Shown piece by piece: positions 8,509 through 35,987 of a stretch of 64,000 nt of DNA. The first letter of the stretch is position 1; every line of letters begins with the position of its first letter. The stretch comes from Burkholderia multivorans ATCC BAA-247 (GTDB taxonomy: Bacteria > Pseudomonadota > Gammaproteobacteria > Burkholderiales > Burkholderiaceae): NCBI RefSeq assembly GCF_000959525.1, contig NZ_CP009831.1, positions 1,798,001 through 1,862,000 of the forward strand. The letters are read 5' to 3'. The notes beneath the pieces are model-generated. The model had not been told where the DNA came from. It did not search any database and worked only from the letters and a program-made list of their open reading frames with translations. A program made the position numbers and the translations under genes.

Positions 8509-8685
8509 GACGGTGTCTCCTGGGTCTTCGATATCGGCCGGAATCGGCGCGGGCGCGCGTGCTCCGGTCTCGTGCAAAACCGCGACGTCGATTGTTCGCG
8601 GACAAGCGAACCCCGCGCGTCGATCGTCGACGCGAACGGTTCGGTAAAACGGCGGAAAAGCGTCAGGCGGACGCCGGCGCGGCGA

Positions 8686-13926: not shown

Positions 13927-14415
13927 ATGACCGATTCCGATTTCCCCACCGACGACACCCGCATCCACGAAGACGGCCTCTGGCGCGACAACGGCTGGAC
14001 GGCCCGCATCATCAAGAACGAAGACGACGACGGCTGGGCCGTCGAAATGATCAAGGACGGCGAGGCCGAGCCTGCGCTCGTCGGCCCGTGGACGATGGGC
14101 CGCGACAAGAAGAATCCGAAGCCGATGGACGCGGCCGCGTTCCGCACGCTCGTGAAGACGGCGACCGAAGTGCTGATGCGGCACGAACAGCAGCGGCGCG
14201 CGATGCTGCACAAGCAGGTGACGGTCTGGGCCGGCGACAGCGAGGTGTCGGTCACGCTCGACATCGTGCCGGACGAGCTCGAGCCGTATGCGGAACTGAA
14301 GGCGTTCGATCCGTACGGCGAACTGCTCGCCGACGCGAAGGTGTCGGCCGCGTTCCAGCTGAACAAGGCAAGCGCGACGCGCTGGGTCGAATCGGGATAC
14401 GCGCGGCCGGCGTGA
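13927..14415 (+). CDS. Conserved hypothetical protein (162 aa)
   Basis: This soluble acidic protein has no signal peptide or membrane segment. The N-terminal half has WTARIIKNEDDDGWAVEMIKDG and LVGPWTMGRDKKNPKPMD. The C-terminal half has an alternating beta-like pattern (VTVWAGDSEVSVTLDIVPDE). I recognise the style as a lineage-conserved Burkholderia hypothetical but no functional domain. Coding bias is strong and the reading frame is clear. Its promoter would lie in the divergent region with the response regulator. Confidence 0.75.
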   Translation: MTDSDFPTDDTRIHEDGLWRDNGWTARIIKNEDDDGWAVEMIKDGEAEPALVGPWTMGRDKKNPKPMDAAAFRTLVKTATEVLMRHEQQRRAMLHKQVTVWAGDSEVSVTLDIVPDELEPYAELKAFDPYGELLADAKVSAAFQLNKASATRWVESGYARPA

Positions 14416-14461
14416 CGCGCGGCACGGCGGCCGCGCGCCGGGCGCGCGGGGCGCGCCGGGC

Positions 14462-14514
14462 GCGTTGGGCGCGTTGGGCGCGTTGGGCGCGTTGGGCGCG
14501 TTGGGCGCGTTGGA
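14462..14514. repeat. Tandem 9-bp repeat (GCGTTGGGC)x5.9
   Basis: Five perfect copies of GCGTTGGGC run from 14462 to 14506, followed by a partial copy (GCGTTGGA). They lie between the convergent ends of the hypothetical gene and the sigma54 activator. The unit is a multiple of three but falls outside both stops. Confidence 0.9.
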
Positions 14515-14545
14515 CACGGCGCGCGCCGCCCTGCGCAAGCGCGCG

Positions 14546-15967
14546 TTACGCGTGCAGCCCGTGCGCGGTCATCAGCCGGTACAACGTCGCACGCGACACG
14601 CCGAGCGCCGCAGCGACGTCCGCATGCTGGTGGCGATGGCGCATCAGCGTCTCCTCGATCGCGCGCCGCTCGGCCTGCCGGCGCGCTTCGGCCAGCGTCG
14701 GCGGCCGTTGCGACGTATACGCACCGAGCTCGAGATCGGCTGCCGTGATCGTCGAGCCGTTCGTCATCACGATCGCGAAGCGGATCCGGTTGATCAGCTC
14801 GCGCACGTTGCCGGGCCACCCATAGTTGTAGATTGCCTCCACCGCGCACGGCGCGAAGCCGCGGATCCGGTGCGCGCAGTCGCCGCGAAACCGATGCAGC
14901 ATGTGCTCGGCGAGCAGCATGATGTCGCGGCCGCGCGCGCGCAGCGGCGGCTCGTCGATCCGCATCACGCACAGCCGGTAGTAGAGGTCAGCGCGGAACC
15001 GCCCGTCCTGCATCGCCGCTTCGAGATCGACGTGCGTCGCCGACACGATCCGCACGTCGACCGGAATCGACGCATGGCCGCCGAGACGTTCGATCGTCCC
15101 CTGCTGCAGAAAGCGCAGCAGGCTCGCCTGGCTCTCGAACGGCATGTCGCCGATCTCGTCGAGAAACAGCGTGCCGCCGTGCGCGGCCTCGATGCGGCCG
15201 ATCTTGCGCTGATGCGCGCCCGTAAACGCGCCGCGCTCGTAGCCGAACAGTTCGGCCTGCAGCAGCGTCGGCGGAATCGCCGCGCAGTTGACGGGCACGA
15301 ACGGCCCGTGCGCGCGCGCCGACTGCTGGTGGATCGCGGCGGCCGTCAGCTCCTTGCCGGTGCCCGACTCGCCGGCGACGAACACCGCCGCATCGGTGTT
15401 CGCGACCTTGCGGATCGTCGCGAACAGCCGGCGCATCGCGTCGCATGCGCCGATCATCGTGCCGCCCGGCGCGTCGGTCTGCCGGTCCGGAGCGGCTTCC
15501 GCGAGCTTCAGCATGCCGTACGCATGGCCGACGAGATAGCCGATCGTCGTATACGCGCTCGCGTTGCGCACGTAGTCGAAGCAGCACTGGCGAATCAGCC
15601 GGCACAGCGCGACGTCCTTCAGCCGCTCGTCGCCGGCCAGCGCGACCCAGCCCACGCGCGGATCGCGCAGCACCGCCTCGAACGCGGCGACGTCGAGCGC
15701 GGCGAATCCGTCGAAATCGACGATGCCCGCATACAGCCGATTTCCGCGCAGGTAATTGAGTGCGTCCGCAACGGTCTTCGCGTGCCACACGTCCCATCCG
15801 TTCGACGCGAGACAGTCGACGAGCGCGGCGTCGGGGCGCGGCGACAAATAGACGAGCGGCCGCGCCGGCACCACGCGGTTGCGCCGGAGCGCCGCGAACG
15901 ACGGCGGGCACACGAGCGGCTCGCTGTGCTGCGAGGCGGAGAAACTGATCGGGCAACGGTTGTTCAC
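14546..15967 (-). CDS. Sigma54 enhancer-binding protein with atypical receiver-like domain (VpsR/BerB-like)
   Basis: This transcriptional activator of RpoN promoters has about 473 residues. The N-terminal 150 residues resemble a receiver (LVYLSPRPDAALVDCLASNG, YAGIVDFDGF) but lack the usual acidic pair after the first strand. The central AAA+ domain has Walker A AGESGTGKE, the sigma54-contact loop GAFTGA, Walker B TLFLDEIGDM and the arginine region RFRADLYYRL. The C-terminal Fis-type helix-turn-helix is DVAAALGVSRATLYRLMTAHG. A GTG at 15967 with GAGG six bases upstream is the chosen start. It sits downstream of the exported-protein genes and near two sigma54 promoters, so it is the likely regulator of the matrix locus. 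Similarity to VpsR and BerB is from memory. Confidence 0.85.
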   Translation of the reverse strand: MNNRCPISFSASQHSEPLVCPPSFAALRRNRVVPARPLVYLSPRPDAALVDCLASNGWDVWHAKTVADALNYLRGNRLYAGIVDFDGFAALDVAAFEAVLRDPRVGWVALAGDERLKDVALCRLIRQCCFDYVRNASAYTTIGYLVGHAYGMLKLAEAAPDRQTDAPGGTMIGACDAMRRLFATIRKVANTDAAVFVAGESGTGKELTAAAIHQQSARAHGPFVPVNCAAIPPTLLQAELFGYERGAFTGAHQRKIGRIEAAHGGTLFLDEIGDMPFESQASLLRFLQQGTIERLGGHASIPVDVRIVSATHVDLEAAMQDGRFRADLYYRLCVMRIDEPPLRARGRDIMLLAEHMLHRFRGDCAHRIRGFAPCAVEAIYNYGWPGNVRELINRIRFAIVMTNGSTITAADLELGAYTSQRPPTLAEARRQAERRAIEETLMRHRHQHADVAAALGVSRATLYRLMTAHGLHA

Positions 15968-16069
15968 GGTGGCCTCGCCGCAAGGCGGAATCGGCTGCGC
16001 CGGTGCGGTACGGCGCGCTGTCGCGCCGCCGCGTCGCGCAATACCGGCGTGCGCCGGGATCAAGGGGCG

Positions 16070-16654
16070 TTATCGGCAGAAGATCACGCGCTGCGTGTAA
16101 ATCTGCGGCTCGACGACGGGCGGTGCGGTATGGTTCAGATCGTCGCGGTACGCGCGATAGGTCTTGCCGTTGACGATCACCTCCGACGCGCGCGCGGTTT
16201 CGATCGTGTTCAGCTTGCTGCTCTGCCATTCGCTGACCGTGCTCGACGCGGTCACGCTCGCGTCGCCGGCGATCTTCTGCGTGATCGCACTGCTGTCCTC
16301 CCACGGCTGCGTCTGCATGTCGTGCGCATGCTGCATCGCGCCGACCGTCTTGCCCGTCGGTACCGGCCCGCGCTGCGCGTCGAACGGCACGCCGCGCTCG
16401 TACGACGGCGATTGCCACGACGGCGCATGACCGGCCTCGGGCACCATGTACACCACCTGCGGATCGCCGACCATCATCATCGGCACGCAGGCCGTGTTGT
16501 CGGGCCGGCCGAGCGTCGTCAGCGCCTGCTGCACGCTGGCCGCATTCGCGAGCGTCTGTTCGCTGAGAATCACGAAGACCGCGGGGTTCTGAAATACCGC
16601 CTGTGCGGCGGCCTGCACGCTGTACAGCAGCAGAGCGACCAAAAAGATCCTCAT
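16070..16654 (-). CDS. Exported hypothetical protein (194 aa) of the matrix locus
   Basis: The N-terminus MRIFLVALLLYSVQAAAQA is a Sec signal peptide with probable cleavage after AQA. The mature protein is soluble. It has two Cys (ACVPMMM and the C-terminal IFCR) and GNPQ/NG-rich turns (DPQVVYMVPEAGH). AAGGAGG lies before the ATG. It is the last exported-protein gene in the minus-strand series, just before the sigma54 activator. I recognise no domain. Its place suggests a role in the same surface structure. Confidence 0.75.
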   Translation of the reverse strand: MRIFLVALLLYSVQAAAQAVFQNPAVFVILSEQTLANAASVQQALTTLGRPDNTACVPMMMVGDPQVVYMVPEAGHAPSWQSPSYERGVPFDAQRGPVPTGKTVGAMQHAHDMQTQPWEDSSAITQKIAGDASVTASSTVSEWQSSKLNTIETARASEVIVNGKTYRAYRDDLNHTAPPVVEPQIYTQRVIFCR

Positions 16655-16801
16655 GATTGAGGCCTCCTTGCATCCTCGTCAGGCAAAAAGAGGTGTTGAC
16701 CTCGGGGATGGGACCAACACCCGTCAAACCGCAGCGATCGTCGTGTCGCGCGCCCGGTCCCGCGCGGCCGGCGTACCGGTCGCACGGGGCCGGGCCGCCG
16801 T

Positions 16802-18292
16802 TCACGACGACGTGCTAGTCGACACCACCGTCGGCATCGGCGCGGCCGGCGCCGCCGGAGCGGCCTGGTCGATCGCGGCCGGCACGGCGTCCTTCGCCGG
16901 CTCGGCGAGCGCCGGGACATCAGCGGCCTGCGGCGCCGGTGCGGCAGCCGGTTCGGTGGCCGGTTCGGCGGCGACCGGCGTATCGGCGGCCGCAGGCTGC
17001 TGCGCGGCTTCCGGCATCGGTTCCGCCGGTGCGGCAGCGGTCGACTGCGGGGCGGCGGCCGGCTCGGCTGCCGGCTGCGCCGCGGCATCGGCCTTCGCAT
17101 CGACCGCCGGTGCGGCGGCTTGCGCGGCCGGTGCGGCAACGACTGCGGCGGCCGGCGTCGTGTCGGCTGCAGCCTGCGCGGCTTCCGGCGCCTTCGTGTC
17201 GACGGCCGGCGCGGCCGCCGCTTGCGCGGCCTTGTCGGTCGCGGCCGGCACGGGCTCGGGCGCCTTCGTCTCGGCAACCGGCGCAGCCTTCTCGACAACG
17301 GCCGGTGCGGCGACGACCGCGGCCGCCGGCACTGCGCTCGCCGCCGATTGCGCAGCGGACGGCACCGCGGCCGCAGCCGGTGCGACGGCAGCCGGGATCG
17401 CCGCCGCGGCCTGCGCCGCCTTCGCGACGGCGGGTGCCGGCGCGGGCATCGACAGCGGCGCACTCTGCACGGCGCTCGTCGCGATCGGGCGCGTCGCCGC
17501 CGCTGCCGGCACGGCCGCGTCGAGCGGCGGCAGGCCGAGGCGGCTGCGCACGAGCGGATCGCGGTACTTGATGTCGTCGGCGACGGTCGCTTCCGCCGAC
17601 GGCGCGACGTTCGAGCGCGCGAGCGGTGCGGTCGTGCCCGGGCACAGATGGCCGGTGGCTTCGACCGCGCGCCGGTTCGCATCGCTCTGGCAGAGCAGCG
17701 CGAGTGCGACGTCGGTCAGGCCCATCGCACGGAATTCGCGCGCATCGAGACGACGCACGCAGGCCTGGTCGACGAGCGTCGTGCCGCCCGTCGCGCCGAA
17801 TCCCGGGAACGACACGCCGACGCTCACCGAACCCATGCAGGTGTCGGACAGCGTGGTCGTGAGGCCCGGTGCCTGGATCGCCGGGTTGGTCTTGATCGTC
17901 TGCGTGCCGGAATAATTGACGTTTTCGGTCGTCTGCGTGTTGTACGGACTCGTGCCCGGTGCGCCGGCCGACGCGAGCGTATTGACGCCCTGCGGCTGAT
18001 TCAGGCCGCCGCTCGCCGCGGACGGCATCGTCACGTTCACCTGCACGTTCGAATTGCCGCTGCCCCGAACCCCGCTCGTGCTGGTGGCATTGCCGCCGCG
18101 CGAAGTCGACGTGGTCGTGTTGTTGTTCGTGTTGTTGTTCGTGCTGATGCTCGAGCCGCCACCCAGGCTGACTGCCGTTGCCGTGCTCGACGACTGCGAA
18201 CCCGAGTTCGAGTCGGCCGTTTGCGCGTGGGTACCGATCGTGGTCATCGCGAACAACGCCGCACATGCCACCTTGATCTTGTTGCTGTTCAT
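16802..18292 (-). CDS. Exported protein: Ser/Thr/Asn-rich N-terminus, Cys-containing domain, long Ala/Pro-rich tail (496 aa)
   Basis: The signal peptide is MNSNKIKVACAALFAMTTIGTHAQ. It is followed by a Ser/Thr/Asn-rich stretch (residues about 25-75). Next comes a compact domain (about 140-225) with four Cys: DTCMGSVSVG, VDQACVRRLDAREF, ALALLCQSD and GHLCPG. The remaining 270 residues are almost entirely Ala, Pro, Val and Glu repeats, probably extended and disordered. The Cys domain recalls small phage-associated proteins I have seen, but I cannot name it. GGAG precedes the ATG. The gene lies in the minus-strand exported-protein series. Confidence 0.78.
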   Translation of the reverse strand: MNSNKIKVACAALFAMTTIGTHAQTADSNSGSQSSSTATAVSLGGGSSISTNNNTNNNTTTSTSRGGNATSTSGVRGSGNSNVQVNVTMPSAASGGLNQPQGVNTLASAGAPGTSPYNTQTTENVNYSGTQTIKTNPAIQAPGLTTTLSDTCMGSVSVGVSFPGFGATGGTTLVDQACVRRLDAREFRAMGLTDVALALLCQSDANRRAVEATGHLCPGTTAPLARSNVAPSAEATVADDIKYRDPLVRSRLGLPPLDAAVPAAAATRPIATSAVQSAPLSMPAPAPAVAKAAQAAAAIPAAVAPAAAAVPSAAQSAASAVPAAAVVAAPAVVEKAAPVAETKAPEPVPAATDKAAQAAAAPAVDTKAPEAAQAAADTTPAAAVVAAPAAQAAAPAVDAKADAAAQPAAEPAAAPQSTAAAPAEPMPEAAQQPAAADTPVAAEPATEPAAAPAPQAADVPALAEPAKDAVPAAIDQAAPAAPAAPMPTVVSTSTSS

Positions 18293-18336
18293 TTCACTCT
18301 CCGGACGAGGATTGACCTCCCACCCAGGCAACCGTG

Positions 18337-18618
18337 CTAATTCCCCTGAATGATTTCAGCTTTTCCCGCTTCCCCGAACTGTTTCCAGCCGCTGCCGAGC
18401 TGGGACCACGAGCCGTCCGCCATTCCCTGCCATTGCTGGGAAGTCGGTCCGCCGATGGCACCGCCCGCCGAAAGCGTTTGTTGTTCTGACGGTTTGGTTG
18501 TCTGGGCAAGGTCGTTTGACGTCTGCATATTCGATTGCACGTCCTCGGCAGCACGGTCAGCGCCATACGCCGTCAAAGACGCGAGCATCAGAGCGGCGGC
18601 AATCAGTTTGTGCTTCAT
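18337..18618 (-). CDS. Small exported protein (93 aa) of the matrix locus
   Basis: The signal peptide MKHKLIAAALMLASLTAYGA leads to a mature chain of about 73 residues rich in Gln, Ser and Gly (SNMQTSNDLAQTTKPSEQQ, QQWQGMADGSWSQLGSGW). It has no Cys and no membrane segment. It sits 44 bases upstream of the 496-residue exported protein on the same strand and may be co-transcribed. No known domain is recognised. The Gln/Ser/Gly content resembles fibre or matrix accessory proteins. Confidence 0.75.
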   Translation of the reverse strand: MKHKLIAAALMLASLTAYGADRAAEDVQSNMQTSNDLAQTTKPSEQQTLSAGGAIGGPTSQQWQGMADGSWSQLGSGWKQFGEAGKAEIIQGN

Positions 18619-18698
18619 GCCAACTCCTTACCTAACGTGACAACAATGCGGGAAAAGAGACCAGCGTCACTGCGAAACTGGTCCCCCCACATCTCCTG

Positions 18699-19286
18699 CT
18701 AATGACTGCCTGCGTTCGCGCCTGAACCTGCCTGACTGCCGCCCGAGGCGGACGGCGAGCCGGCCGGGCCGGTACTCCACACGGTCGACGAGTTGAAGTG
18801 ATTCGAGCCCGCGATCGTGCCCGAGCCGCCGGGACCGGAAACGGCCCCCGCCCACCCGTTCGCGTTGCCCTGATCGTTCGCCCCCGTTGCCGTGTAGTGG
18901 TTTGCGCCGAGAACGATCGTGGCGGTCACCCCTCCCGACAATGCATTCGCGTTCACATTCGTGCTGCTGTTTCCGCCGTACGACCCTGCGGCACCGATAC
19001 CGCCGCCTGCCGCAAACGCGCCCCCGTTCGTGCCCGAACCGCTGGCCGTCGAGGTCGAGTTGTGAAAGGCGGATGCCGTGCCGGCGGACCCGGCGGGTGT
19101 CACGGTGCTTCCTGCGTTCGCGCCCGCTACCGAATTCGAGTTGCTCGTATAGCTGCCGGAGCCGACCAGTACCGATCCGGACACGCCCGCCGCGACGGAC
19201 TGTGTCTGATTGGTCGTCGACCCGGCCGCCCATACGACCGATGAAATGGCGGTGAGCGCTGTCGCTAAAATGACGTTGGCTTTCAT
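18699..19286 (-). CDS. Gly/Ser/Ala/Asn-rich exported protein (195 aa), candidate matrix or fibre subunit
   Basis: The signal peptide MKANVILATALTAISSVVWA is followed by a mature chain dominated by Gly, Ser, Ala, Asn and Thr. Repeats of the GSGSYTSNSNSVAGANAGS type and NANALSGGVTATIVLGANHYT recur. There is no Cys and almost no charge. AAGGA precedes the ATG at 19286. The composition is like functional-amyloid or silk-like secreted proteins, but no curli or Fap repeat is recognised. It shares style and a NH/FHNS-like motif with the 108-residue neighbour. Confidence 0.78.
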   Translation of the reverse strand: MKANVILATALTAISSVVWAAGSTTNQTQSVAAGVSGSVLVGSGSYTSNSNSVAGANAGSTVTPAGSAGTASAFHNSTSTASGSGTNGGAFAAGGGIGAAGSYGGNSSTNVNANALSGGVTATIVLGANHYTATGANDQGNANGWAGAVSGPGGSGTIAGSNHFNSSTVWSTGPAGSPSASGGSQAGSGANAGSH

Positions 19287-19396
19287 AGCAATTCCTTGCT
19301 GTGAGGAAGTTTGGCGGTAGCGGGCCGGCCCCGCCCGCATCGGGCGAAACCGGCACTCGCTGCCACCAGCCAATGACGAACGCTACGCGCCGCGAC

Positions 19397-19723
19397 TTAG
19401 TGGTGGAACGTCGTCCAGCCGATCGAGCCAGCATTCGCGCCGCTTTGGCCGCCGGCCTGTGCGCCGCCGAAGCCGTAGCCGCCGACCGTCGACGTATTCG
19501 TATGGTTCGTGTACGAGATCGAGCTGCTGCCGCCATAGCCGGCGGTTGCGCCGGCTGCGCCGAGCGCCGAGCCCGAATCGGTCGCGGTGAAGTGGCCGAA
19601 CCCGACGACGCCGGCCGACGTGCCGCCGACGCTCGACGAGCTGCTGCTCGAAACCGTGCCGCCACCTGCGAACGCTGCACCCGAAACCGCCAGAACTGCT
19701 GCTGCAATCAGAAGCTTCTTCAT
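19397..19723 (-). CDS. Small Gly/Ser-rich exported protein (108 aa), candidate matrix subunit
   Basis: The signal peptide MKKLLIAAAVLAVSGAAFAG is followed by a Gly/Ser-rich mature chain: SSSSSSSVGGTSAG, GYGGSSSISYTNHTNTS and a C-terminal WTTFHH. It is nearly uncharged and has no Cys. GGAG lies six bases before the ATG. It is the first exported-protein gene in the minus-strand series, downstream of the AT-rich island and the leftward sigma54 promoter. It looks like a small structural protein. Function is inferred from composition and place only. Confidence 0.78.
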   Translation of the reverse strand: MKKLLIAAAVLAVSGAAFAGGGTVSSSSSSSVGGTSAGVVGFGHFTATDSGSALGAAGATAGYGGSSSISYTNHTNTSTVGGYGFGGAQAGGQSGANAGSIGWTTFHH

Positions 19724-20224
19724 GGTCGACTCCATAACGGCGTGGACGGAACAGGCAGGGAAGGTCGCACGCCGACAACCGTCCCTGCTTCAAGCAATCC
19801 CTTCGAACAGGATTACTTTTTAATTAACCGTATTCACATTCCTTTAAATCGATTTGCTTATCTATTTTTGGTCAGCCGAAGTGTAGTTTCACGTTGTTCA
19901 GTTGTCCAAATATCGTTGTTAGGTGTTTTCTATTAGTTTGCTGAACATTAAAACCAATTCGAAAACACCTTAATTCATACCGCCTTTAATCGCGCGCACT
20001 GCCCCATTCCGCCTTTTTCGAATATCGTCCGGGCGACTGCCTGAATACGACAGTGCGATGCGAATCGAAAACGGGCGAAACAGAATCGGTACGATGAAAT
20101 CCGGCCGTGCCGGAACGCGCTGTTCAGCCGGGCGCGCGCGGTCCCCCATTGCGATCAGGCGGCATGGTTTCTCCCTGAGCGATCGACGGAACGGGTTCCG
20201 GAAAAGCGTGCGACGGTACGCGGC
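19724..20224. other. Gene-free stretch including an AT-rich island upstream of the exported-protein genes
   Basis: No gene is supported. From about 19810 to 19990 the sequence is strikingly AT-rich compared with everything around it. It contains a perfect 10-base inverted repeat (annotated at 19921-19970). Such a patch fits a promoter with H-NS-type silencing or a long untranslated leader of the minus-strand transcript from 20628. Confidence 0.6.
19921..19970. repeat. Perfect 10-bp inverted repeat in AT-rich island
   Basis: AGGTGTTTTC (19921-19930) and GAAAACACCT (19961-19970) are exact reverse complements separated by 30 bases. They lie about 200 bases upstream of the 108-residue Gly/Ser-rich gene. 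They could be a paired operator or a large stem-loop in its leader. Confidence 0.6.
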
Positions 20225-20539
20225 CTAGTCGAGCCGACGCCGGCATGCGGGCGGCGCGCTTGGTATCGCGCGGCACGGTCGAACACGGAACGGTATCGGG
20301 CCGTTCGGAATGAACGGGCCGGCGCTGCGGAGCGAGCGGAATGGAGCGCGACACCGGATGCGCTCGAGCGCCGCCGCGAACGGCAAGCCCTCCAGGAGCC
20401 GGAGCACGCGGATGCCGTCGAATCGGCGAGCAGAGACCCGCGAAGCTGGCACCGCGTCGCGAGCAATACCCCGATTCTTTCGACTTCCCCACTGTTGCGC
20501 GTGAATCGCGCGGATCAAGCTACTGCTGTTGGTCTTCAT
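20225..20539 (-). CDS. Leader ORF A (about 104 aa) downstream of leftward sigma54 promoter
   Basis: The ORF starts at the ATG at 20539 with GGGGAAACGGCG upstream, 89 bases after a consensus sigma54 promoter. Its first codons and the 24 bases before them match leader ORF B on the other strand: ATAAGCCA, GTCGGGGAA, CGGC, ATGAAGACCA. The products share MKT-S, an RA..Q motif and GS.(K/R)NR. Beyond about residue 35 the protein is Arg/Pro-rich and may not be conserved. It may be a short regulatory leader peptide or only a conserved 5' leader RNA. Coding status is uncertain. Confidence 0.4.
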   Translation of the reverse strand: MKTNSSSLIRAIHAQQWGSRKNRGIARDAVPASRVSARRFDGIRVLRLLEGLPFAAALERIRCRAPFRSLRSAGPFIPNGPIPFRVRPCRAIPSAPPACRRRLD

Positions 20540-20627
20540 CGCCGTTTCCCCGACTGGCTTATTGACGAGTTGGTCGCCCCACATCTTTGTCGCGTCGCGT
20601 CGACCGCTCGCCGGTGCGTCCCATACC

Positions 20628-20642
20628 GCAAACCGCGTGCCA
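20628..20642 (-). promoter_or_regulatory. Sigma54 (RpoN) promoter, leftward
   Basis: On the minus strand the sequence reads TGGCACG-CGGT-TTGC, an exact match to the -24/-12 consensus TGGCACG-N4-TTGC. It points toward leader ORF A and the exported-protein genes. Transcription would start about 12 bases downstream. Confidence 0.8.
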
Positions 20643-20841
20643 TGCGTTGTGCCATCGGACGCTGCGCGCGGCCTCTCGCCGCAACGCGCGGGCGCGCCGT
20701 CGGGAATGGCGCTTTTTGTTTCAGGAATGTATCGCAATAACGGCCGCGCGCCGCCGGCGATCGTCAAGCGCGGCGAAGCAATGGCGGGAAAAGGCTGAGA
20801 AATCGGCTGGCGCGACGCGCGCACGCCGTCGTCGGAACAAG

Positions 20842-20858
20842 TGTTTCAAACTTGAGAT
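20842..20858 (-). promoter_or_regulatory. Dyad element (candidate enhancer site) of leftward arm
   Basis: In the direction of leftward transcription it reads ATCTCAAGTTTGAAACA, with the symmetric core TCAA-N2-TTGA. It differs by one base from the element at 21299-21315. It lies 200 bases upstream of the leftward sigma54 promoter, a normal distance for an enhancer-binding-protein site. Confidence 0.6.
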
Positions 20859-21162
20859 GCGCACGCCTGCGTCGCTCGCGCGGTACGCCGCGCGCGGCAA
20901 GCCAATCGGTCGCCGCGCGCGCACGACGTCGCGCTTGCGTGCACACGAATGAAAACCGGAGGCGGACGGCCGGACCGAAAACCGCCGCGTCGCCGGCCTC
21001 GGCGTGCGAACGACGCACGCACATCGCGCCACGCCGCGCGCATTTGATTCATTCGTGAAAACACGGCGCGGTCGAATCGAGAAAATCGATCGAAACAAAT
21101 CGGCGCAAAACCGAAATTCGCCCATCGATCAGCGCGCTTTCCCACATAACGGCGACTCCAAT

Positions 21163-21182
21163 GAATTGACGTAGATCAATTC
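21163..21182. promoter_or_regulatory. FNR/CRP-family-like palindromic box
   Basis: GAATTGA-N6-TCAATTC is a perfect 7-base inverted repeat. Its core TTGAC-GTAG-ATCAA differs by one base from the FNR/Anr consensus TTGAT-N4-ATCAA. It is nearly central between the two sigma54 promoters. A CRP/FNR-type protein, including c-di-GMP-responsive members of that family, could bind it. Confidence 0.6.
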
Positions 21183-21298
21183 GGATCGAATCGTCGCGTG
21201 GGCGACTTTCCGTATCGATCGATGACGCATCGTCGATCTCGAATCGCAGATCCCGCGTTGCATCCAATGAACACTTTCCGTGCTTCAGCGCGGTTCGA

Positions 21299-21315
21299 AT
21301 CTCAACTTTGAAACA
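21299..21315 (+). promoter_or_regulatory. Dyad element (candidate enhancer site) of rightward arm
   Basis: ATCTCAACTTTGAAACA is the mirror partner of the element at 20842-20858, with one substitution. It lies 221 bases upstream of the rightward sigma54 promoter. Confidence 0.6.
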
Positions 21316-21535
21316 TCCGCATTCGGCACGCGTGGCGTCGCATGTCGTGCTGCGCGCCTTGGCGCGGCGCATGCCGAATGGTGCCGGTTCGCCCGAATGC
21401 GCGCATCGCGCCGCACGCCCATCCTGTCCCCACGATACACGCATGAAACAAGCGCGCGTGCCGCGCCGCCCGCTGCGCGCGCAACGACACGTCGGCGCAT
21501 GCACGGCGACGGCCGGACCGCAGCCGCATCGCGGT

Positions 21536-21550
21536 TGGCATGCGGCTTGC
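21536..21550 (+). promoter_or_regulatory. Sigma54 (RpoN) promoter, rightward
   Basis: TGGCATG-CGGC-TTGC matches the consensus TGGCACG-N4-TTGC with one change (C to T) and keeps the invariant GG and GC ten bases apart. It lies 87 bases before leader ORF B and about 300 bases before the UDP-sugar/glycan genes. Confidence 0.72.
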
Positions 21551-21636
21551 CTCATGTCCGGTTCAGGCAGGCGGCCTGCACGACCCGAAAAACGGGCGGC
21601 AGCCGCCCGCTCATAAGCCACGTCGGGGAAGCGGCA

Positions 21637-21861
21637 ATGAAGACCATCAGCGAACGGGCGACGCGTGCGTCGGCCCAGCATCAACGGGGAAGTCTGCGCA
21701 ATCGAAGCGTCGTTCACGGCGCTTCGTCGACATCAGCGGAGCAGCAACGGCACGTGCCGGCACTGCGTCCCTGCAGCGACGCAGGCATCGTGCGCGCGTG
21801 CGCCGCAGCGCTCGCTGTCCGGCTCCCGGCGATGTGCGACGAAGGAGAAGACCATGAATGA
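21637..21861 (+). CDS. Leader ORF B (74 aa) upstream of glycan genes
   Basis: The ATG at 21637 follows GGGGAAGCGGCA, in a block of about 38 bases that is nearly identical to the start of leader ORF A. The product begins [19 protein letters not shown] and has an LRNRS motif shared with ORF A. The rest is Ala/Ser/Arg-rich. Its stop overlaps the start of the UDP-xylose synthase gene by eight bases, suggesting translational coupling. It may be a leader peptide or a conserved untranslated leader. Confidence 0.45.
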
Positions 21862-22861
21862 CCGGGTAGCGATCGAGACGCGCGTCGGCCAGCGCGTGCT
21901 CGTGACGGGCGGCGCCGGATTTCTCGGCAGCTATGTATGCGAGCGCCTCGTCGTCGAGGGCGCGCACGTCGTCTGCGTCGACAGCCTGCTGACGGGACGC
22001 AAGCTGAACGTCGCCGACCTGAAGGCGTCGGGTCGTTTCGAGTTCCTCAAAGCCGACGTCACGCTCGGCCTGCCGCAGCTGCAGGTCGACGAGATCTGGA
22101 ATCTCGCCTGCGCGGCATCGCCGCCGACGTATCAGCACGATCCGGTCCACACGATGATGACGAACGTGCTCGGGATGAACCACTGTCTCGCGCTCGCCCG
22201 CAAGACCGGCGCGCGCGTGTTCCAGGCCTCGACGAGCGAGATCTACGGCGACCCCAGCGTGCATCCGCAGATGGAAACGTATCGCGGCAACGTCAATACG
22301 ATCGGCCCGCGCGCGTGCTACGACGAAGGCAAGCGCGCCGCCGAGGCGCTCTGCTACGACTACTACCGCACGTACGGCGTGGACGTGCGCGTCGCACGCA
22401 TCTTCAATACGTACGGGCCGCGAATGTCGCCGCGCGACGGCCGCGTCGTGTCGAACTTCATCGTCGGCGCATTGAACGGCGAGCCGCTCGAGATTTACGG
22501 CGACGGCCTGCAGACGCGCTCGTTCTGTTTCGTCAGCGATCTGATCGACGGCTTCTTCTGCCTGATGGGCGCCGAGCGCAACGTCGGGATGCCGGTCAAC
22601 ATCGGCAATCCGGTCGAATTCACGATGATCGAGCTCGCGCAGAAGGTGCTCGCGCTGACCGGTTCTCAATCCGAGATCGTATTCCGCCCGCTGCCGATCG
22701 ACGATCCGCATCAGCGTCGCCCCGACATCTCGGTCGCCGCGACCGAGCTCGGCTGGCGGCCATGCGTCGATCTCGACGAGGGGCTGCGCCGCACCGTCGA
22801 CTACTTCGCCCGCGAACTGTGGATCGCGCCGATGCTGCAGATGACCGGAGCGGCCGCATGA
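21854..22861 (+). CDS. UDP-glucuronate decarboxylase (UDP-xylose synthase, UXS-like)
   Basis: This 335-residue extended SDR enzyme has the cofactor motif [11 protein letters not shown], catalytic Thr/Ser in [11 protein letters not shown], and the UXS-type YDEGKRAAE carrying Tyr and Lys. [10 protein letters not shown] and [15 protein letters not shown] follow, all features of UDP-xylose synthases. It would oxidise and decarboxylate UDP-GlcA, provided by the UDP-glucose dehydrogenase two genes downstream, to UDP-xylose. GAAGGAGAAG precedes the ATG. Its stop overlaps the galE start (ATGA). It is the first enzyme gene behind the rightward sigma54 promoter. Confidence 0.85.
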
Positions 22862-23847
22862 AAGTATTCGTCACAGGCGGCGCCGGCTATATCGGCAGCC
22901 ATACGTGCAAGGCGCTCGCGGAGGCCGGGCATGCGCCGGTCGCGTACGACGATCTGTCCACCGGCCATCGCGACGCGGTGCGCTGGGGGCCGCTCGTCGT
23001 CGGCAGCATCCTCGACCGCGACGCACTCGGCCGCGCGCTCGCCGCACATCGGCCCGACATCGTGATTCACTTCGCGGCGCTCGCGTACGTCGGCGAATCG
23101 GTGCTCGCGCCCGATCGCTATTACGCGACGAACGTGACAGGCACCTGCACGCTGCTGAACGCGATGCGGACGGCCGGCGTCGGCCGGATCGTGCTGTCGT
23201 CGTCGTGTGCGACGTACGGGATTCCCGATGCGCTGCCGATCTGCGAACACACGCCGCAGCATCCGATCAACCCGTACGGCTTCACGAAGTACGCGATGGA
23301 GAGGATGGCGGCCGACTTCGAGCGCGCCTACGGATTGCAGTGGGTCGCGCTGCGCTACTTCAATGCAGCGGGCGCGGACCCGGACGGCCTGCTCGGCGAA
23401 AACCACGAACCCGAAACGCATGCGCTGCCGCTCGCGATCCGCGCGGCGCTGGGTACCGGCCGCCCGTTCACGGTGATGGGCACCGACTATCCGACGCCCG
23501 ACGGCTCGGCCGTGCGCGACTACGTGCACGTGAGCGATCTCGCCGATGCGCACGTCAAGGCCACCGCGTATCTGTGCCGTGGCGGCAACAGCGTCGCGCT
23601 GAATCTCGGTACGGGCACGGGCACGTCGGTGCTCGAGCTCGTACGCGCGGTCGAAACGGCGACCGGATCGCGCGTGCCGACCGTCATGGCCGCGCGCCGC
23701 CCCGGCGATCCGCCGGCGCTGTATGCGGACGCGACGAAAGCCGCGCTCGTGCTCGGCTGGCGCCCGCGCTTCGCCGGGATCGAGCCGATGGTCGAGCATG
23801 CGGTGCGGTGGTTCCGTCAGGAGCTGCCGCTCGTGTCGAACAAGTAA
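22858..23847 (+). CDS. galE: UDP-glucose 4-epimerase (GalE-like)
   Basis: This 329-residue extended SDR has [15 protein letters not shown] at the NAD site, catalytic SSSCATYG, and the YGFTK Tyr/Lys pair. [13 protein letters not shown] and [14 protein letters not shown] follow, all hallmarks of GalE. It interconverts UDP-glucose and UDP-galactose. Since a UDP-xylose synthase is translationally coupled upstream, UDP-xylose/UDP-arabinose epimerisation is also possible. It lies between the UXS and UDP-glucose dehydrogenase genes. Confidence 0.88.
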
Positions 23848-23882
23848 TACCAGGCGTCGTTCAACCAATCACGGGGATAACC

Positions 23883-25304
23883 ATGAATGTGCGGATCGCC
23901 ATCGTCGGCACCGGCTATGTCGGGCTCGTCAGCGGCGCGTGTCTGGCGGAGCTCGGACACGACGTCGTCTGCATCGACAACAATCGCGGCAAGATCGACG
24001 CGCTGAACCAGGGCTGCATGCCGATCTACGAGCCCGGCCTCGACGCGCTCGTCGCGCGCAACGTCGGACGCGGGACGCTGCGGTTCAGCAGCGATCTCGC
24101 CGCGAGCGTGCGCGACCGCGACGCGGTGTTCATCGCGGTCGGCACGCCGACGCTGCCGGGCACCGATCGCGCGGACCTGCAGTACGTCGAAGCCGCCGCG
24201 CGCGACATCGCATCGAACCTGAACGGCTTCACGGTCGTCGTCACGAAATCGACGGTGCCGGTCGGCACGAACCGGCGCGTGCAGGACATCGTCGAGCGTC
24301 ATGCGCCGCCCGGGATCGGCACCGCGATTGCGTCGAACCCCGAGTTCCTGCGCGAAGGGTCGGCGATCGACGACTTCATGCATCCGGATCGCGTCGTGTT
24401 CGGCGCCGAGCATCCGCGCGCGATCGAGATCATGAACGCGATCTATGCCCCGCTCGCCGCGGCCGGCCATCTCGTGCTCGCGACCGAGATCGAGACGGCC
24501 GAACTCGTCAAGTACGCGGCCAATGCGTTTCTCGCGGTGAAGATCAGCTACATCAACGAGATTTCGGACCTCTGCGAAGCGGTCGGCGCCGACGTCGAGC
24601 TCGTCGCGAACGGAATGGGCCTCGACCGGCGGATCGGCGCGGCATTCCTGAAGGCGGGGCCCGGTTGGGGCGGCTCGTGCTTTCCTAAGGACACGCGCGC
24701 GCTGAAGGCGACCGCATCCGAACACGCGGTGCCGCTGCGCATCGTCAGCGCGGCGATCGAATCGAATGCGCTGCGCAAGGCGCAGATCCTCCAGCGGATC
24801 GAAAACGCGTGCGGCGGCTCGATCAAGGGCAAGCGCATCGCGGTGCTCGGCCTCACGTTCAAGGGGCAGACGGACGACGTGCGCGAAAGCCCGAGCATCG
24901 ACGTGATCCAGCTGCTCGTCGGCGCGGGCGCGCATATCCGCGCCTACGATCCCGCGCGGCCGCACGAGGCGTCGCGGCTGCTGCCGCAGGTGTTCATGGA
25001 AAGCTCGGCGGTCGACGCGGTGCGCAGCGCCGACGCCGTCGTCGTGATGACCGAGTGGAAAGCCTTCGAGACGCTCGATCTCGCGGATCTCGCCGACCAC
25101 ATGTCGGACCCGGTGATGCTCGACATGCGCAACCTGTTCGACGAACGGCGCGCGGTCGACTGCGGCTTTCGCCGCTACGAGCGCGTCGGCCGCTCGTGCA
25201 GCGCACGCACGCCGGCCGACGCCGCGCGCGGCCGCGTGCCGGTCGCCGACGATACGACGGCTGCGCCGCAGCCTGCTTCAAAGCTGATGATCGACTCGAA
25301 CTAA
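23883..25304 (+). CDS. ugd: UDP-glucose 6-dehydrogenase
   Basis: This 473-residue nucleotide-sugar dehydrogenase has N-terminal IVGTGYVGLVSG (NAD site), STVPVGT, SNPEFLREGSAI and LVKYAANAFLA. The catalytic Cys is at about residue 266 in GWGGSCFPKD, and the C-terminal GLTFKGQTDDVRESPS completes the set. It makes UDP-glucuronate from UDP-glucose, the substrate of the UXS enzyme encoded upstream. The last 40 residues are a non-conserved tail. It is 35 bases downstream of galE and 32 bases upstream of the synthase gene. Confidence 0.93.
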   Translation: MNVRIAIVGTGYVGLVSGACLAELGHDVVCIDNNRGKIDALNQGCMPIYEPGLDALVARNVGRGTLRFSSDLAASVRDRDAVFIAVGTPTLPGTDRADLQYVEAAARDIASNLNGFTVVVTKSTVPVGTNRRVQDIVERHAPPGIGTAIASNPEFLREGSAIDDFMHPDRVVFGAEHPRAIEIMNAIYAPLAAAGHLVLATEIETAELVKYAANAFLAVKISYINEISDLCEAVGADVELVANGMGLDRRIGAAFLKAGPGWGGSCFPKDTRALKATASEHAVPLRIVSAAIESNALRKAQILQRIENACGGSIKGKRIAVLGLTFKGQTDDVRESPSIDVIQLLVGAGAHIRAYDPARPHEASRLLPQVFMESSAVDAVRSADAVVVMTEWKAFETLDLADLADHMSDPVMLDMRNLFDERRAVDCGFRRYERVGRSCSARTPADAARGRVPVADDTTAAPQPASKLMIDSN

Positions 25305-25336
25305 CTCGCGTATGCGAGACCGTTGGGGGGAACACC

Positions 25337-27979
25337 ATGGAGAAGCTCGTTGCGTCGCTCGCCGGCGGCGCGGCGTCGGAGGCGTCCGACGCCCAGGCCG
25401 GCCGCGCCGAAAGCGCCGAAACCGATGTGCCGCTCGTGGTGCCGCTGATGGACAGCGGCACGCGCACGATCTTTCATCTGCTCGCGCTGTGCTGGGTCGC
25501 CGCGCTCGCGATCTTCTGGCGCTGGTGGCTGCGCGACGAGCATTACGTCGATGCGTTCCGCTTCGGCGTCAACTGCTTCATCCTGTTCTGGACCACCTTC
25601 ATTCCCGGCTACTTCATCTTCATCATCCGCTCCGCGGTCGTGCCGAACCCGGCGCTCGACGTGCCGCGCGGCTGGCGCGTCGCGATGGTCGTCACGAAGG
25701 CGCCGTCCGAGCCGTTCGAGGTCGTGCGCACGACGCTGCTCGCGATGCTCGATCAGACCTACCCGCACGACACCTGGCTCGCCGACGAGGATCCGACTCC
25801 GGCCACGCTCGAATGGTGTCGCCTGCACGGCGTGCGCGTGTCGACGCGGCGCGGCGTCGCCGACTATCACCGCGCGAGCTGGCCGCGCCGCACGAAATGC
25901 AAGGAAGGCAACCTCGCGTACTTCTACGACACGTACGGCTACGACAACTACGATTTCGTGTCGCAGCTCGACGCCGATCATGTGCCGACGCGCACGTATC
26001 TCGAGGAGATGCTGCGTCCGTTCGTCGATCCGGCGGTCGGCTACGTGTCCGCGCCGAGCATCTGCGACAGCAATGCCGCGCTGAGCTGGAGCGCGCGCGG
26101 GCGCGTGAACGTCGAGGGCCCGCTTCACGGCACGATGCAGGCCGGCTATGCGGGCGGTCTCGCGCCGCTCTGCATCGGCTCGCACTACGCGGTGCGCTGC
26201 CGCGCGCTGCGCGAGATCGGCGGCCTCGGCCCCGAACTCGCCGAAGATCATTCGACGACGATGATCTTCAACGCGCACGGCTGGCGCGGCATGCACGCAC
26301 TGAACGCGATCGCGAACGGCGAAGGGCCGCGTACGTTCGCCGATCTCGCCACGCAGGAATTCCAGTGGTCGAAGAGCGTGATGATCATCATGCTGCGCTA
26401 CACGCGCCGCTATTTCGGCGGGCTGCCGCTGAAACTGAAGGCGCAGTTCCTGTTCTGCCAGCTGTGGTATCCGCTCTGTGCGCTCGCGATGGCGGGCGGC
26501 GTCGCGATCCCGGTCGCCGCGCTGCTCACGGGGCGCGTGTGGGCGCACGTCGACTACATTACGTATCTCGCCTACGCGGTGCCGCTCAGCGTGCTGATCC
26601 TCTGCGTCGTCACCTGGTCCACGCACGCGACGCAGTCGTGTCGGCCTCTGAACACGAAGCTGCTGTCGTGGGAAGGCCTGTCGTTCGTGTTCGCGCGCTG
26701 GCCGTGGGTCGTGCTCGGCTGCCTGTCGGCGATCGTCGACTGCATCCGCGGCAAGGAATTCGCCTTCAAGGTCACGCCGAAGGGCGGCGCGATCGAGCAG
26801 GACGCGCCGCTGCGCGTCGTCGCGCCGTATCTGCTGATCTCGCTGTTCTGCAGTTCGCCCGTCGTCGCGATCGAGAATCCGCACAACGCCGGCGGCTTCT
26901 ATCTGTTTTCGACGCTGACGAGCATCCTGTACTTCGTGATCGCGGCCGTGGTCGCCGTCAATCACGGCAAGGAACAGGGGCGCGCCGCGTCTGCGCCCGC
27001 GCAGATGTTCTTCAGCCGCCTGCCGGTGCGCAACGCGCTGTTCGTGTTCGCGCTCGCGATGCTGGTCGCCGGCATCGCGCTGCGCGCGCCGAAGGGCTGG
27101 CAGGCCGTCACGTGGCGCTCGGGCCTGCCCGCCGTGCTCGCGCCGGCGCCGGGGCAGCCGGTCAAGCAGCCCGCACTCGGCGTCTACGACCCGGACCGCG
27201 TGTTCGCGTCCGACGCGAACCTCGCATTCGATCATGTGTTCGTGTCGTGGAACGCGCCCGACCTCGACACGCAGATCGACGACGCGTATCGCACCGCGCA
27301 CGCGCGCAACCGCGCGCTGATGGTGACGGTCGAACCGTGGGCGCTGCCCGGCAGCCGCACAGGCGCGCTGCTCGACGATATCGCGCACGGCCGTTACGAC
27401 GCGCGCATCGCGGCGACCTGCTCGGCGCTCGCCGCACTGCACGCGCCGGTGTTCGTGCGCTGGGGCCACGAGATGGAAACCGACACCGGCCGCTATCCGT
27501 GGGCGAGCGGCGACGCGTCCGGCTATATCGACGCGTACCGGCGCGTCGTCGATGCGTGCCGCGCGATGACCGACCAGCTGCGCTTCGTGTGGTCGCCGGC
27601 CGGCAACCGCAACCTCGACGACTATTTCCCCGGCCCCGGCTACGCCGATGCAGTCGGCCTGTCGGTGTTCGACTGTCCGCGTTGCGCGGTGTGGCCGGCG
27701 GGCGGGCGCGCGTCGGCCGAAAACATCCTGCGGACCAAGTACGCGCGCGTCGCCGACTACGGGCTGCCGGTGATGGTCACCGAACTCGGTGTCGACGGCT
27801 CGGACGCGCGCAAGCGCGACGCGCTCGACGAATTCCAGCGCTCGCTGTGGCGCTATCCGCTGCTGAAGGCCGTGGTGTATTTCAATGCGGTCGACACGCC
27901 GGGTGCCTGGCCCGCCCGCTACGTGCCGGACTGGCGGATCGCGCCGTCGTTCCTGCAGGCGGAAGTCGTCGCGAAGTAG
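25337..27979 (+). CDS. Membrane GT2 glycan synthase fused to a C-terminal GH26 glycoside hydrolase (880 aa)
   Basis: Two N-terminal membrane segments (about 43-62 and 72-95) lead into a processive family-2 glycosyltransferase domain. It has D150, the DAD motif D212/D214 in QLDADH, acceptor Asp D304 in AEDH, and a QxxxW box at Q340-W344. About six further membrane helices follow (about 370-600). Residues about 630-875 form a GH26-like barrel with acid/base Glu E712 in RWGHEM and nucleophile Glu E816 in VTELG, 104 residues apart as in GH26. The GH part would face the periplasm if the usual topology holds. It probably polymerises and trims a beta-glycan from the UDP-sugars made by the upstream genes. 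Confidence 0.85.
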   Translation: MEKLVASLAGGAASEASDAQAGRAESAETDVPLVVPLMDSGTRTIFHLLALCWVAALAIFWRWWLRDEHYVDAFRFGVNCFILFWTTFIPGYFIFIIRSAVVPNPALDVPRGWRVAMVVTKAPSEPFEVVRTTLLAMLDQTYPHDTWLADEDPTPATLEWCRLHGVRVSTRRGVADYHRASWPRRTKCKEGNLAYFYDTYGYDNYDFVSQLDADHVPTRTYLEEMLRPFVDPAVGYVSAPSICDSNAALSWSARGRVNVEGPLHGTMQAGYAGGLAPLCIGSHYAVRCRALREIGGLGPELAEDHSTTMIFNAHGWRGMHALNAIANGEGPRTFADLATQEFQWSKSVMIIMLRYTRRYFGGLPLKLKAQFLFCQLWYPLCALAMAGGVAIPVAALLTGRVWAHVDYITYLAYAVPLSVLILCVVTWSTHATQSCRPLNTKLLSWEGLSFVFARWPWVVLGCLSAIVDCIRGKEFAFKVTPKGGAIEQDAPLRVVAPYLLISLFCSSPVVAIENPHNAGGFYLFSTLTSILYFVIAAVVAVNHGKEQGRAASAPAQMFFSRLPVRNALFVFALAMLVAGIALRAPKGWQAVTWRSGLPAVLAPAPGQPVKQPALGVYDPDRVFASDANLAFDHVFVSWNAPDLDTQIDDAYRTAHARNRALMVTVEPWALPGSRTGALLDDIAHGRYDARIAATCSALAALHAPVFVRWGHEMETDTGRYPWASGDASGYIDAYRRVVDACRAMTDQLRFVWSPAGNRNLDDYFPGPGYADAVGLSVFDCPRCAVWPAGGRASAENILRTKYARVADYGLPVMVTELGVDGSDARKRDALDEFQRSLWRYPLLKAVVYFNAVDTPGAWPARYVPDWRIAPSFLQAEVVAK

Positions 27980-27983
27980 GTGC

Positions 27984-28050
27984 GAGGTGCCGCCGGCAAG
28001 TGCGGCCGGCGAGGTGCGGCCGGCGAGGTGCGGCCGGCGAGGTGCGGCCG
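27984..28050. repeat. Tandem 14-bp repeat between convergent genes
   Basis: The unit GAGGTGCGGCCGGC occurs about five times, with one 13-base copy and a partial last copy. It lies between the stop of the GT2-GH26 gene and the stop of the AraC regulator. It may be length-variable. Confidence 0.85.
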
Positions 28051-28059
28051 CCCGTTTCC

Positions 28060-28983
28060 TCAGCCAAGCAGCTCGCGCCGCCGCAAGTGCGCAACGTCGC
28101 GCATCGGCGGCGCGCCGAACAGCCGGCTGTACTCGCGGCTGAACTGCGACGCGCTCTCGTAGCCGACGCTCGCGGCGACCGAGCCGACGTCGCCGCCCTG
28201 CTGCAGCAGCAGCCGGCGCGCCTCGTGCAGCCGCAGCTGCTTCTGGTACTGCAGCGGGCTCAGCGTCGTCACGTGCTTGAAATGATGATGCAGCGACGAC
28301 ACGCTCATGTTGACCGCGTTCGCGAGCGTCTCGACGCGCATCGGCTCCGCGAAGTGCGCACGGATCCATTCGATCGCGCGCGCGATCCGGTGCGTCTGGC
28401 TGCCGGCGACGGCCATGTGCCGCAGCCGCGTGCCCTGTGCGCTCGTCAGCAGCCGGTACAGCATCTCCTTCTCGATCAGCGGCGCGAGCACCGGGATGTC
28501 GGCCGGCGTGTCGAGCAGCCGCACGAGGCGCAGCGCGGCATCGAGCAGCGGCGGCGTCAGCTCGGCGAGCGCGATGCCCTCGCCCTCCGGGCCGGACTCC
28601 GGCTCCGGTAGCCGCATCTCGGCCGCGAGCTCGACGATCCGCTGCGGATCGAGCGTCAGCGACAGGCAGAGGTATGGCGCGTCGGCCGACGCGCGCGTCA
28701 CGCGCGACAGGATCGGCAAGTCGATCGACGTAATCAGGCAGTTTTGTGCATCGTATTCGTACGCGTGGCCGCCCACGATCACGCGCTTCGCGCCCTGCGC
28801 GGCAATCACGAGCGCCGCGCGCGACACGGCGCAGCCGAGATCGACGGGCCGCACGTGCTTGTGCAGCATCAGGCCCGGCACCGCGGTCGCGTGCGAGCCG
28901 TCGACCGGCGCAAAGCGGCCGATCAGCGACGCCAGTTCGCGCTGCCCGGCCGCGCGCGACGCGGCGATGTCGGTCATGTCCAT
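28060..28983 (-). CDS. AraC-family regulator divergent from the molybdenum hydroxylase genes
   Basis: This 307-residue protein has an N-terminal AraC_N-type ligand domain ([32 protein letters not shown]) and a C-terminal AraC helix-turn-helix pair. The latter includes [23 protein letters not shown] and [22 protein letters not shown]. The ATG at 28983 with AGGA upstream is preferred to a GTG one codon earlier. It is transcribed away from the IorA/IorB-like pair and probably controls it. AraC_N members often govern aldehyde or alcohol responses. Confidence 0.9.
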
Positions 28984-29165
28984 CACGAGATCCTCGAATC
29001 GGTTTGCCCTGTCGCGCGAGCATAGCGAAAGGTCTGTCGCCGCGCGCGGGATTTGCAGGATTGTTCAAGAAATTTGCAGGATTGGGTAGACGAAAACGGC
29101 GGCGGCTCGCGCACACTGCCGGCTATCCCGGCCCGGCGCCGGGTTATCCCCACGGAGACACCCCC

Positions 29166-35941: not shown

Positions 35942-35972
35942 ACGCCTCGCACGCACGCCGCACGCGCCCTTT

Positions 35973-35987
35973 TAGACTCTTCGTCTA
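35973..35987. promoter_or_regulatory. Small dyad TAGAC-N5-GTCTA before the giant gene
   Basis: This perfect 5-base inverted repeat lies 66 bases upstream of the chosen start. It may be part of the promoter or operator of the giant gene. Confidence 0.35.

Follow-up and report, generated by a model that had tools for sequence, protein, structure and literature searches.

The 64,000-nucleotide stretch of Burkholderia multivorans ATCC BAA-247 considered here (the window; G000:C2:1798001-1862000, from a genome of 6.3 Mb on three contigs) carries two rows of genes that run outward from a common control region. The left row encodes a small head protein and a set of exported-looking proteins and ends with the gene for a sigma54 activator, and the right row encodes a second small head protein, three sugar-nucleotide enzymes and a membrane synthase. 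The same sigma54 control module precedes both rows in mirror image and, as judged from sequence, couples the left row, for putative matrix proteins, to the right row, for a glycan synthase, under an activator of the BerB/BrfA type. Each row is taken to be a single operon of predicted extent.

All of the named records with the matrix gene row (23 loci) belong to Burkholderia, and the locus, a candidate matrix locus in the Burkholderia cepacia group, has apparently gone undescribed. An original prediction, made from the letters of the sequence, had not recognised it as a described system, and the open-licence literature that was searched likewise held no account recognisable as a description of it. 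The B. cenocepacia counterparts carry tags that we take to be BCAM202x-203x and I35_586x-587x, and in the available parts of the papers carrying such tags the locus is not treated. The main text of the B. cenocepacia start-site paper (PMC4603805) has nothing on it either.

The mirrored control region

The elements between the two rows are listed in order of position, with UAS1 and UAS2 denoting enhancer-like dyads and ORF an open reading frame.

20225-20539, minus strand: sL, small ORF at the head of the left row, 104 amino acids, arginine-rich, no Pfam family
20525-20562, minus strand: left-arm start element, covering the ribosome-binding region and the first codons, 35 of 39 aligned columns identical to the right arm
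20628-20642, minus strand: sigma54 -24/-12 promoter of the left arm, TGGCACGCGGTTTGC, GG-N10-GC core
20717-20732, minus strand: UAS2 of the left arm, candidate dyad, 90 base pairs (bp) before the promoter
20844-20857, minus strand: UAS1 of the left arm, candidate dyad, 215 bp before the promoter
21300-21313, plus strand: UAS1 of the right arm, candidate dyad, 236 bp before the promoter
21435-21450, plus strand: UAS2 of the right arm, candidate dyad, 101 bp before the promoter
21536-21550, plus strand: sigma54 -24/-12 promoter of the right arm, TGGCATGCGGCTTGC, GG-N10-GC core
21613-21651, plus strand: start element of the right arm, 35 of 39 aligned columns identical to the left arm
21637-21861, plus strand: sR, small ORF at the head of the right row, 74 amino acids, overlapping the next gene

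Both promoters combine the GG-N10-GC core with TGGCAY..TTGC, so that the two sites, predicted at these coordinates as one consensus and one near-consensus promoter, are in fact both exact. The pattern TGGCAY-N5-TTGC occurs three times in the 64-kb window against 0.13 expected from 100 shuffles; the third match, at 7655-7669 on the minus strand, lies within an ORF (7567-8577, minus strand) and is possibly due to chance. A looser 17-base promoter pattern with two mismatches allowed was rejected, as it gave seven matches against 3.8 expected, which is the level of shuffled sequence, and for that reason the exact form alone was used. That loose matches are so common in the window is what can be said for chance likeness within GC-rich intergenic DNA, an explanation that the exact-pattern statistics and the conservation across species exclude, leaving it a negligible probability.

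The head ORFs begin with ATG codons at 20539 (minus strand) and 21637 (plus strand), at 88 bases from the promoter on the left and 86 on the right, the spacing given originally being 87 to 89 bases. Around these starts, where about 38 nearly identical bases had been seen, the local alignment of the two arms scores 56, and none of 1000 dinucleotide-shuffled versions of the right arm scored above 42. The two start elements hold I1, the longest inverted repeat found within 20000-22200, and their outer ends are 1.13 kb apart. The inverted duplication of 1.1 kb that had been proposed is thus real, and it is larger than was noted, the similarity between the arms beginning at UAS1 and reaching the coding sequence of each small ORF (a lenient alignment scored 59.5, the best of 500 shuffles 29.5).

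The dyads, this extension into the ORFs and the activator gene at 14546-16063 are features that lie beyond the original prediction. UAS1 reads TCTCA-N4-TGAAA and UAS2 reads ATACA-N4-TGAAACA, each in both arms, and UAS1 coincides with I2, the second inverted repeat listed for 20000-22200, an imperfect dyad TCTCAAsTTTGAAACA. With up to two mismatches allowed, the 14-base core of UAS1 is found in the window at 20844-20857 and 21300-21313 only, where 0.05 matches would be expected.

Conservation and duplication of the module

A joint pattern of the UAS1 dyad, 195 to 225 bases and the promoter was matched just twice in the complete B. multivorans genome, both times at this locus and directed outward. 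Conservation in related genomes was one of the tests by which the original prediction would have stood or fallen, and the pattern is present in 39 of 65 genomes of the genus (that of the window counted among them), with both arms in 28 and one arm in 11, while a reversed control pattern had no match in any of the 65. All 58 distinct modules, which were selected by the UAS1-promoter pattern from 52 scanned loci (loci without the pattern being uncounted), have UAS2, with at most two mismatches, in the interval from UAS1 to the promoter. UAS2 stands 90-91 bp from the promoter in left arms and mostly 80 bp (79-81) in right arms, with 93 bp in two relatives and 101 bp in the window; the spacings of 80, 90-91 and 101 are separated by roughly whole turns of the helix, and 93 does not fit this series.

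On a midpoint-rooted tree of the 58 modules, in which arms were assigned by alignment score and the right arm of the window was set by hand, the left modules group apart from the right ones, which makes it likely that both descend from one old duplication. UAS1 is more variable in right arms than in left arms.

Similar geometry is found in a few other places. In the B. multivorans genome the left arm alone matches a pattern in which a sigma54 site follows a dyad at about 90 bp, the spacing of the right arm falling outside that pattern. A slightly stricter form of the dyad was matched in five of 41 genomes, at this locus in four of them (G003, G005, G018 and G024) and at two other loci, L142 and L144, in G009, where sigma54 sites with TTCA-N4-TGAAA about 88 bp upstream stand, by eye, before a response-regulator-like gene and a short ORF. 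A distant matrix gene row in G006, one of the five outgroup genomes described below (40-68% identity), has a sigma54 site with dyads of the TCTCA..TGAAA type 91 and 217 bp upstream, one of which carries one mismatch. At this row (L106) an ORF of about 130 amino acids (about 13744-14136, minus strand) takes the place of sL and has no evident likeness to it by eye.

The activator and its relatives

The left row ends with the gene that is proposed to control both arms.

14546-16063, minus strand: sigma54 enhancer-binding protein with a VpsR domain, a sigma54 AAA+ domain and a Fis-type helix-turn-helix, its exact start codon uncertain

The three domains were matched in Pfam by PF00158 (6e-70), PF20161, the VpsR family (6e-18; 65 bits, cut-off 23.7), and PF02954 (1e-6; 28.6 bits, cut-off 22). 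The protein has the features of an enhancer-binding protein, namely GAFTGA within the sigma54 AAA+ domain and a C-terminal Fis-type DNA-binding domain, and by PF20161 its N-terminal domain is that of the VpsR/BerB/BrfA-type activators. A homologue was matched at all 18 relative loci, including L045, where sL and the activator remain and the matrix genes were not found, and L047, where the activator alone remains. Loss of the matrix genes with retention of the activator homologue was also observed at L048.

In five outgroup Burkholderia genomes the nearest relative of the activator (61-67% identical) and a paralogue flank a short set of genes. All five of these loci have TTTCA-N4-TGAAA 90-91 bp before a sigma54-like site, TGGCATGNAWTTCGC (at most two mismatches allowed), which is the geometry of UAS2 in the left arm of the window. 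Models of the Fap functional-amyloid proteins matched genes between the outgroup activators at three of the five loci, with scores that in every case fell short of the curated cut-offs. The matches were to FapA, C, E and F at L147, C and D at L146, and C, D, E and F at L148. At the other two, L145 and L149, the scanned ORFs between the paired activators match no family. On the activator tree the clade of the window (support 1.00) joins the flanking relatives ‘A’ (0.95) with a joint support of 0.98.

The same comparisons bear on the idea that both arms are driven by sigma54 through some other activator, such as a VpsR-domain paralogue or NtrC, with the local activator regulating something else. 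Three more VpsR-domain proteins are encoded in the genome, among them L111, a probable BerB orthologue as judged by eye from its neighbouring genes, which shares 56% identity with the window activator in the part that matches; activators stand in side-by-side pairs in the five outgroup genomes, and the like-formed dyads there mean that the site preference may be family-wide. On the other side, the local activator ORF begins only 6 bases past the matrix genes, and its homologue accompanies every one of the 18 relative loci, even the two in which no matrix genes were found. Control by another activator is, on balance, unlikely.

The left gene row

Signal peptides, along with the labels AraC-type and secretion, were judged by eye in what follows.

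19397-19735, minus strand: Gly/Ser-rich exported-looking protein, 112 amino acids, ORF with homologues
18699-19286, minus strand: Gly/Ser/Ala-rich exported-looking protein, 195 amino acids from MKANV, ORF with homologues
18337-18618, minus strand: exported-looking protein, 93 amino acids, ORF with homologues
16802-18292, minus strand: exported-looking protein, 496 amino acids, Ser/Asn/Thr-rich and then Ala/Pro-rich by eye, ORF with homologues
16070-16654, minus strand: exported-looking protein, 194 amino acids, ORF that stops 6 bases before the activator ORF

The row thus runs from sL through four exported-looking proteins of no known family and the conserved 194-amino-acid protein to the activator. 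The exported Gly/Ser-rich proteins predicted on this side are indeed encoded, with N-termini that resemble signal peptides. No Pfam or NCBIfam family was found above cut-off for the left-arm proteins, the searches with the 195-amino-acid protein having been run with two extra residues. None of the five putative matrix proteins was matched by a Fap model (FapA-F), in a library that does detect Fap-like proteins at the outgroup loci L146, L147 and L148. Of 299 genomes from the family, 32 have the 194-amino-acid protein, and each of these belongs to this genus.

Between sL and the first matrix gene lie about 490 bp (19736-20224), a length that is similar in 13 aligned relatives, with conserved blocks near both ends. 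The GC content is 36-46% across 19700-20099 and lowest, at 36%, in one 200-base stretch.

The right gene row and the fate of the glycan arm

In the right row sR is followed by genes for enzymes acting on uridine diphosphate (UDP) sugars, by a glycosyltransferase family 2 (GT2) synthase with a part resembling glycoside hydrolase family 26 (GH26), and, beyond these, by a gene of opposite orientation.

21854-22861, plus strand: UDP-glucuronate decarboxylase-like epimerase (UDP-xylose synthase-like), Pfam Epimerase 6e-48
22858-23847, plus strand: GalE, UDP-glucose 4-epimerase, TIGR01179, 384 bits, cut-off 262
23883-25304, plus strand: nucleotide-sugar dehydrogenase, UDP-glucose 6-dehydrogenase-like, TIGR03026, 453 bits, cut-off 190
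25337-27979, plus strand: membrane GT2 glycosyltransferase (cellulose-synthase-like), C-terminal part weakly GH26-like, PF13506 2e-12
28060-28986, minus strand: AraC-type-regulator-like gene, beyond the synthase

The glycan-synthase row that had been predicted to the right is accordingly encoded, from sR through the decarboxylase-like protein, GalE and the dehydrogenase-like protein to the GT2 synthase. Kin of the first enzyme occur in four plasmid records, annotated as UDP-glucuronic acid decarboxylase family protein, and no NCBIfam equivalog scored above cut-off for it. The GH26-like part of the synthase was matched by PF02156 with 20.3 bits at a cut-off of 20.2, this match and that to PF13506 both coming from a Pfam scan of a longer ORF. 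Bacterial cellulose synthase was considered and rejected, the CelA model TIGR03030 giving 68 bits, far under its cut-off of 699; the protein may work like a GT2 synthase and is not classed as a cellulose synthase.

A full-length synthase is encoded in 20 of the 65 genomes and is absent as a full copy from 45, and 3'-terminal pieces only are found near the module in G024, G043, G044, G061, G064 and G076. Both arms and the synthase show strong co-occurrence. By the strict pattern both arms are present in 19 of the 20 genomes with the synthase, the remaining one, G005, having the left arm, compared with 9 of the 45 without it (Fisher p 9e-9, a value that overstates the co-occurrence because the genomes are related). 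The glycan arm has been lost repeatedly, for example at L039, L040-L044 and L049, with the activator homologue retained, and such repeated loss among relatives makes the coupling of the two arms open to comparative testing.

It might be supposed that the right arm is a decaying copy of the old duplication and that its promoter is dead in this lineage. The greater variation of UAS1 in right arms, the 45 genomes that have no full synthase and the 21-22 extra bases in the right arm of the window would all agree with decay. Against it, UAS2, the promoter, sR and the four downstream ORFs of the window are intact, and the UAS2 spacings of 80, 90-91 and 101 keep to about whole helical turns (the 93 of two relatives excepted), so that a dead right promoter appears very improbable.

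The small ORFs at the heads of the rows

Among 33 distinct sequences of sL, 32 are 96-107 amino acids long and one is 77, and among 18 of sR, 17 have 74 amino acids and one has 70. These counts omit loci at which the start pattern was unmatched, both arms in L069 and L070 (in which the starts can be seen by eye) and a single arm in each of L039, L048, L054, L073, L079 and L081. The 77-amino-acid sequence, L075, is a truncated left ORF and was excluded from the right set in the small-protein profile and pN/pS tests, pN/pS being the ratio of nonsynonymous to synonymous polymorphism. This ratio is 0.76 in frame for sL (the remaining frames giving 0.88 and 1.03) and 0.58 for sR (1.34 and 0.94), and because in-frame values of 0.58 and 0.76 compare with 0.88-1.34 elsewhere, the case that sR is coding is fair and that for sL is weak.

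The profiles of sL and sR match over the first 42-44 residues, with E values of 5.5e-6 and 3.5e-6 and a probability of 85.7-87.6%; in the test that gave the latter E value, the lowest value among 20 column shuffles was 0.048. By this sequence comparison the two are related small proteins, and the probable duplication extends into both ORFs.

The leader, the start region and the beginning of the ORF are conserved in both arms, in a consensus from which L048 (left) and L054 and L081 (right) were excluded and whose right set includes the one left sequence L075. Such conservation fits an alternative account of the head, as mainly a translated leader or RNA control element that tunes the downstream genes, so that the identity of the starts would not come from common descent alone. 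The overlap of sR with the next gene and the weak constraint at the protein level point the same way, as does the right leader with its ORF start, one of three right-arm stretches, which folds at z -2.89 against column shuffles in a set that includes the misfiled L075. The other two right stretches reached only z -1.42 and -1.81, and the consensus folds of the left-arm leader did not improve on those of column shuffles (z between -0.74 and 0.01), so that a structured RNA leader finds no support in the left arm and a mixed result in the right. Across 13500-29500 no Rfam family reached its gathering score, the sole listed match, to mir-128 (E 0.41), being taken as chance. A leader or RNA function as the main role of the head is therefore doubtful.

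A more far-reaching idea, offered tentatively and held to be less likely than not, is that of a “matrix switch”. Here the head ORFs would be a new small-protein family, so far at the level of the genus, that was copied along with enhancer and promoter, each member helping to balance or time its matrix arm; an activator akin to those of fap-like loci would have moved to a gene row new to it and later acquired another target in mirror image.

Comparison with known systems

Described activators of matrix genes offer several points of comparison, each taken from those parts of the cited papers that were available. BerB (Bcam1342) of B. cenocepacia binds cyclic di-GMP (c-di-GMP) and its target promoter, and together with RpoN controls berA and the bep exopolysaccharide genes (PMC5552954). 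It shares with the window activator its nature as a sigma54 activator, the exopolysaccharide theme and the genus; it differs in working via berA, whereas the window has two divergent rows, inverted copies of a module and an activator inside one of the rows. BrfA of Pseudomonas fluorescens PF07 senses c-di-GMP and with RpoN controls the fap functional-amyloid operon (PMC9207406, PMC13101488). By description the likeness lies in a sigma54 activator of the VpsR/BrfA kind adjoining an operon for exported matrix proteins, with Fap-like genes at three of the five outgroup loci. The left row of the window, in contrast, matches no Fap model and is accompanied by a glycan-synthase arm that carries a copy of the control module. 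VpsR of Vibrio cholerae has in common with the window activator the VpsR domain and the theme of polysaccharide, yet it is described as independent of sigma54 and without an intact GAFTGA (PMC3162934), a motif that the window protein has. The cepacian (bce) and B. pseudomallei bec clusters, as exopolysaccharide genes of the same genus, are likened to the locus by theme alone.

A model for joint activation

The original prediction held that one activator fires both arms together. Support for this comes from sequence, in that the same pair of dyads stands at both promoters, the pattern is found nowhere else in the genome and the activator gene ends the left row. In the proposed mechanism an inverted pair of modules of about 400 bp, one copy per operon and each made up of UAS1, UAS2, the sigma54 promoter, 86-88 bases to the ATG and the head of a small ORF, would co-activate the two divergent operons through the product of 14546-16063. 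This activator, of the BerB/BrfA kind, would bind dyads of the TYTCA-N4-TGAAA type about 80-101 and 213-236 bp upstream and loop to sigma54-RNA polymerase, so that both promoters open, probably at high c-di-GMP. The left transcript would yield exported proteins of a biofilm matrix and then more activator, a positive feedback, and the right transcript would supply precursors of the UDP-xylose/UDP-glucuronate type along with the membrane synthase for a matrix glycan. The probability of this reading as a whole, with the binding, looping, c-di-GMP and matrix roles as proposed, is put at roughly 75%.

Several observations weigh against it. The right arm of the window exceeds most right arms by 21-22 bp, and the 213-236 bp that separate UAS1 from the promoter are more than the typical enhancer distance of 80-150 bp stated in the available parts of two papers. 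A full synthase is missing from 9 of the 28 genomes with two arms, so conservation of the right promoter does not prove that this promoter drives the synthase. The three further VpsR-domain activators of the genome could act here. At the matrix row of G006 no relative of the activator was found, the nearest ones being on another contig. In the outgroup promoter sites TTCGC replaces TTGC, and the link to fap is partial, because none of the five scanned ORFs at L145 and L149 matched any Fap model. The gap of about 490 bp between sL and the matrix genes could hold another promoter, with one sigma70-like match in it that is weak and no more than shuffles give.

For the locus both a candidate activator and a candidate binding site are defined, and an evolutionary link joins it to the activators of fap-like amyloid loci. 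Enhancer, promoter, leader and small ORF seem to have been duplicated together, and thereby to have coupled a protein arm to a glycan arm.

Elsewhere in the window, a single ORF of 4000 amino acids (35930-47932, plus strand) lies near a gene at 34375-35049 that resembles a type III secretion export component.

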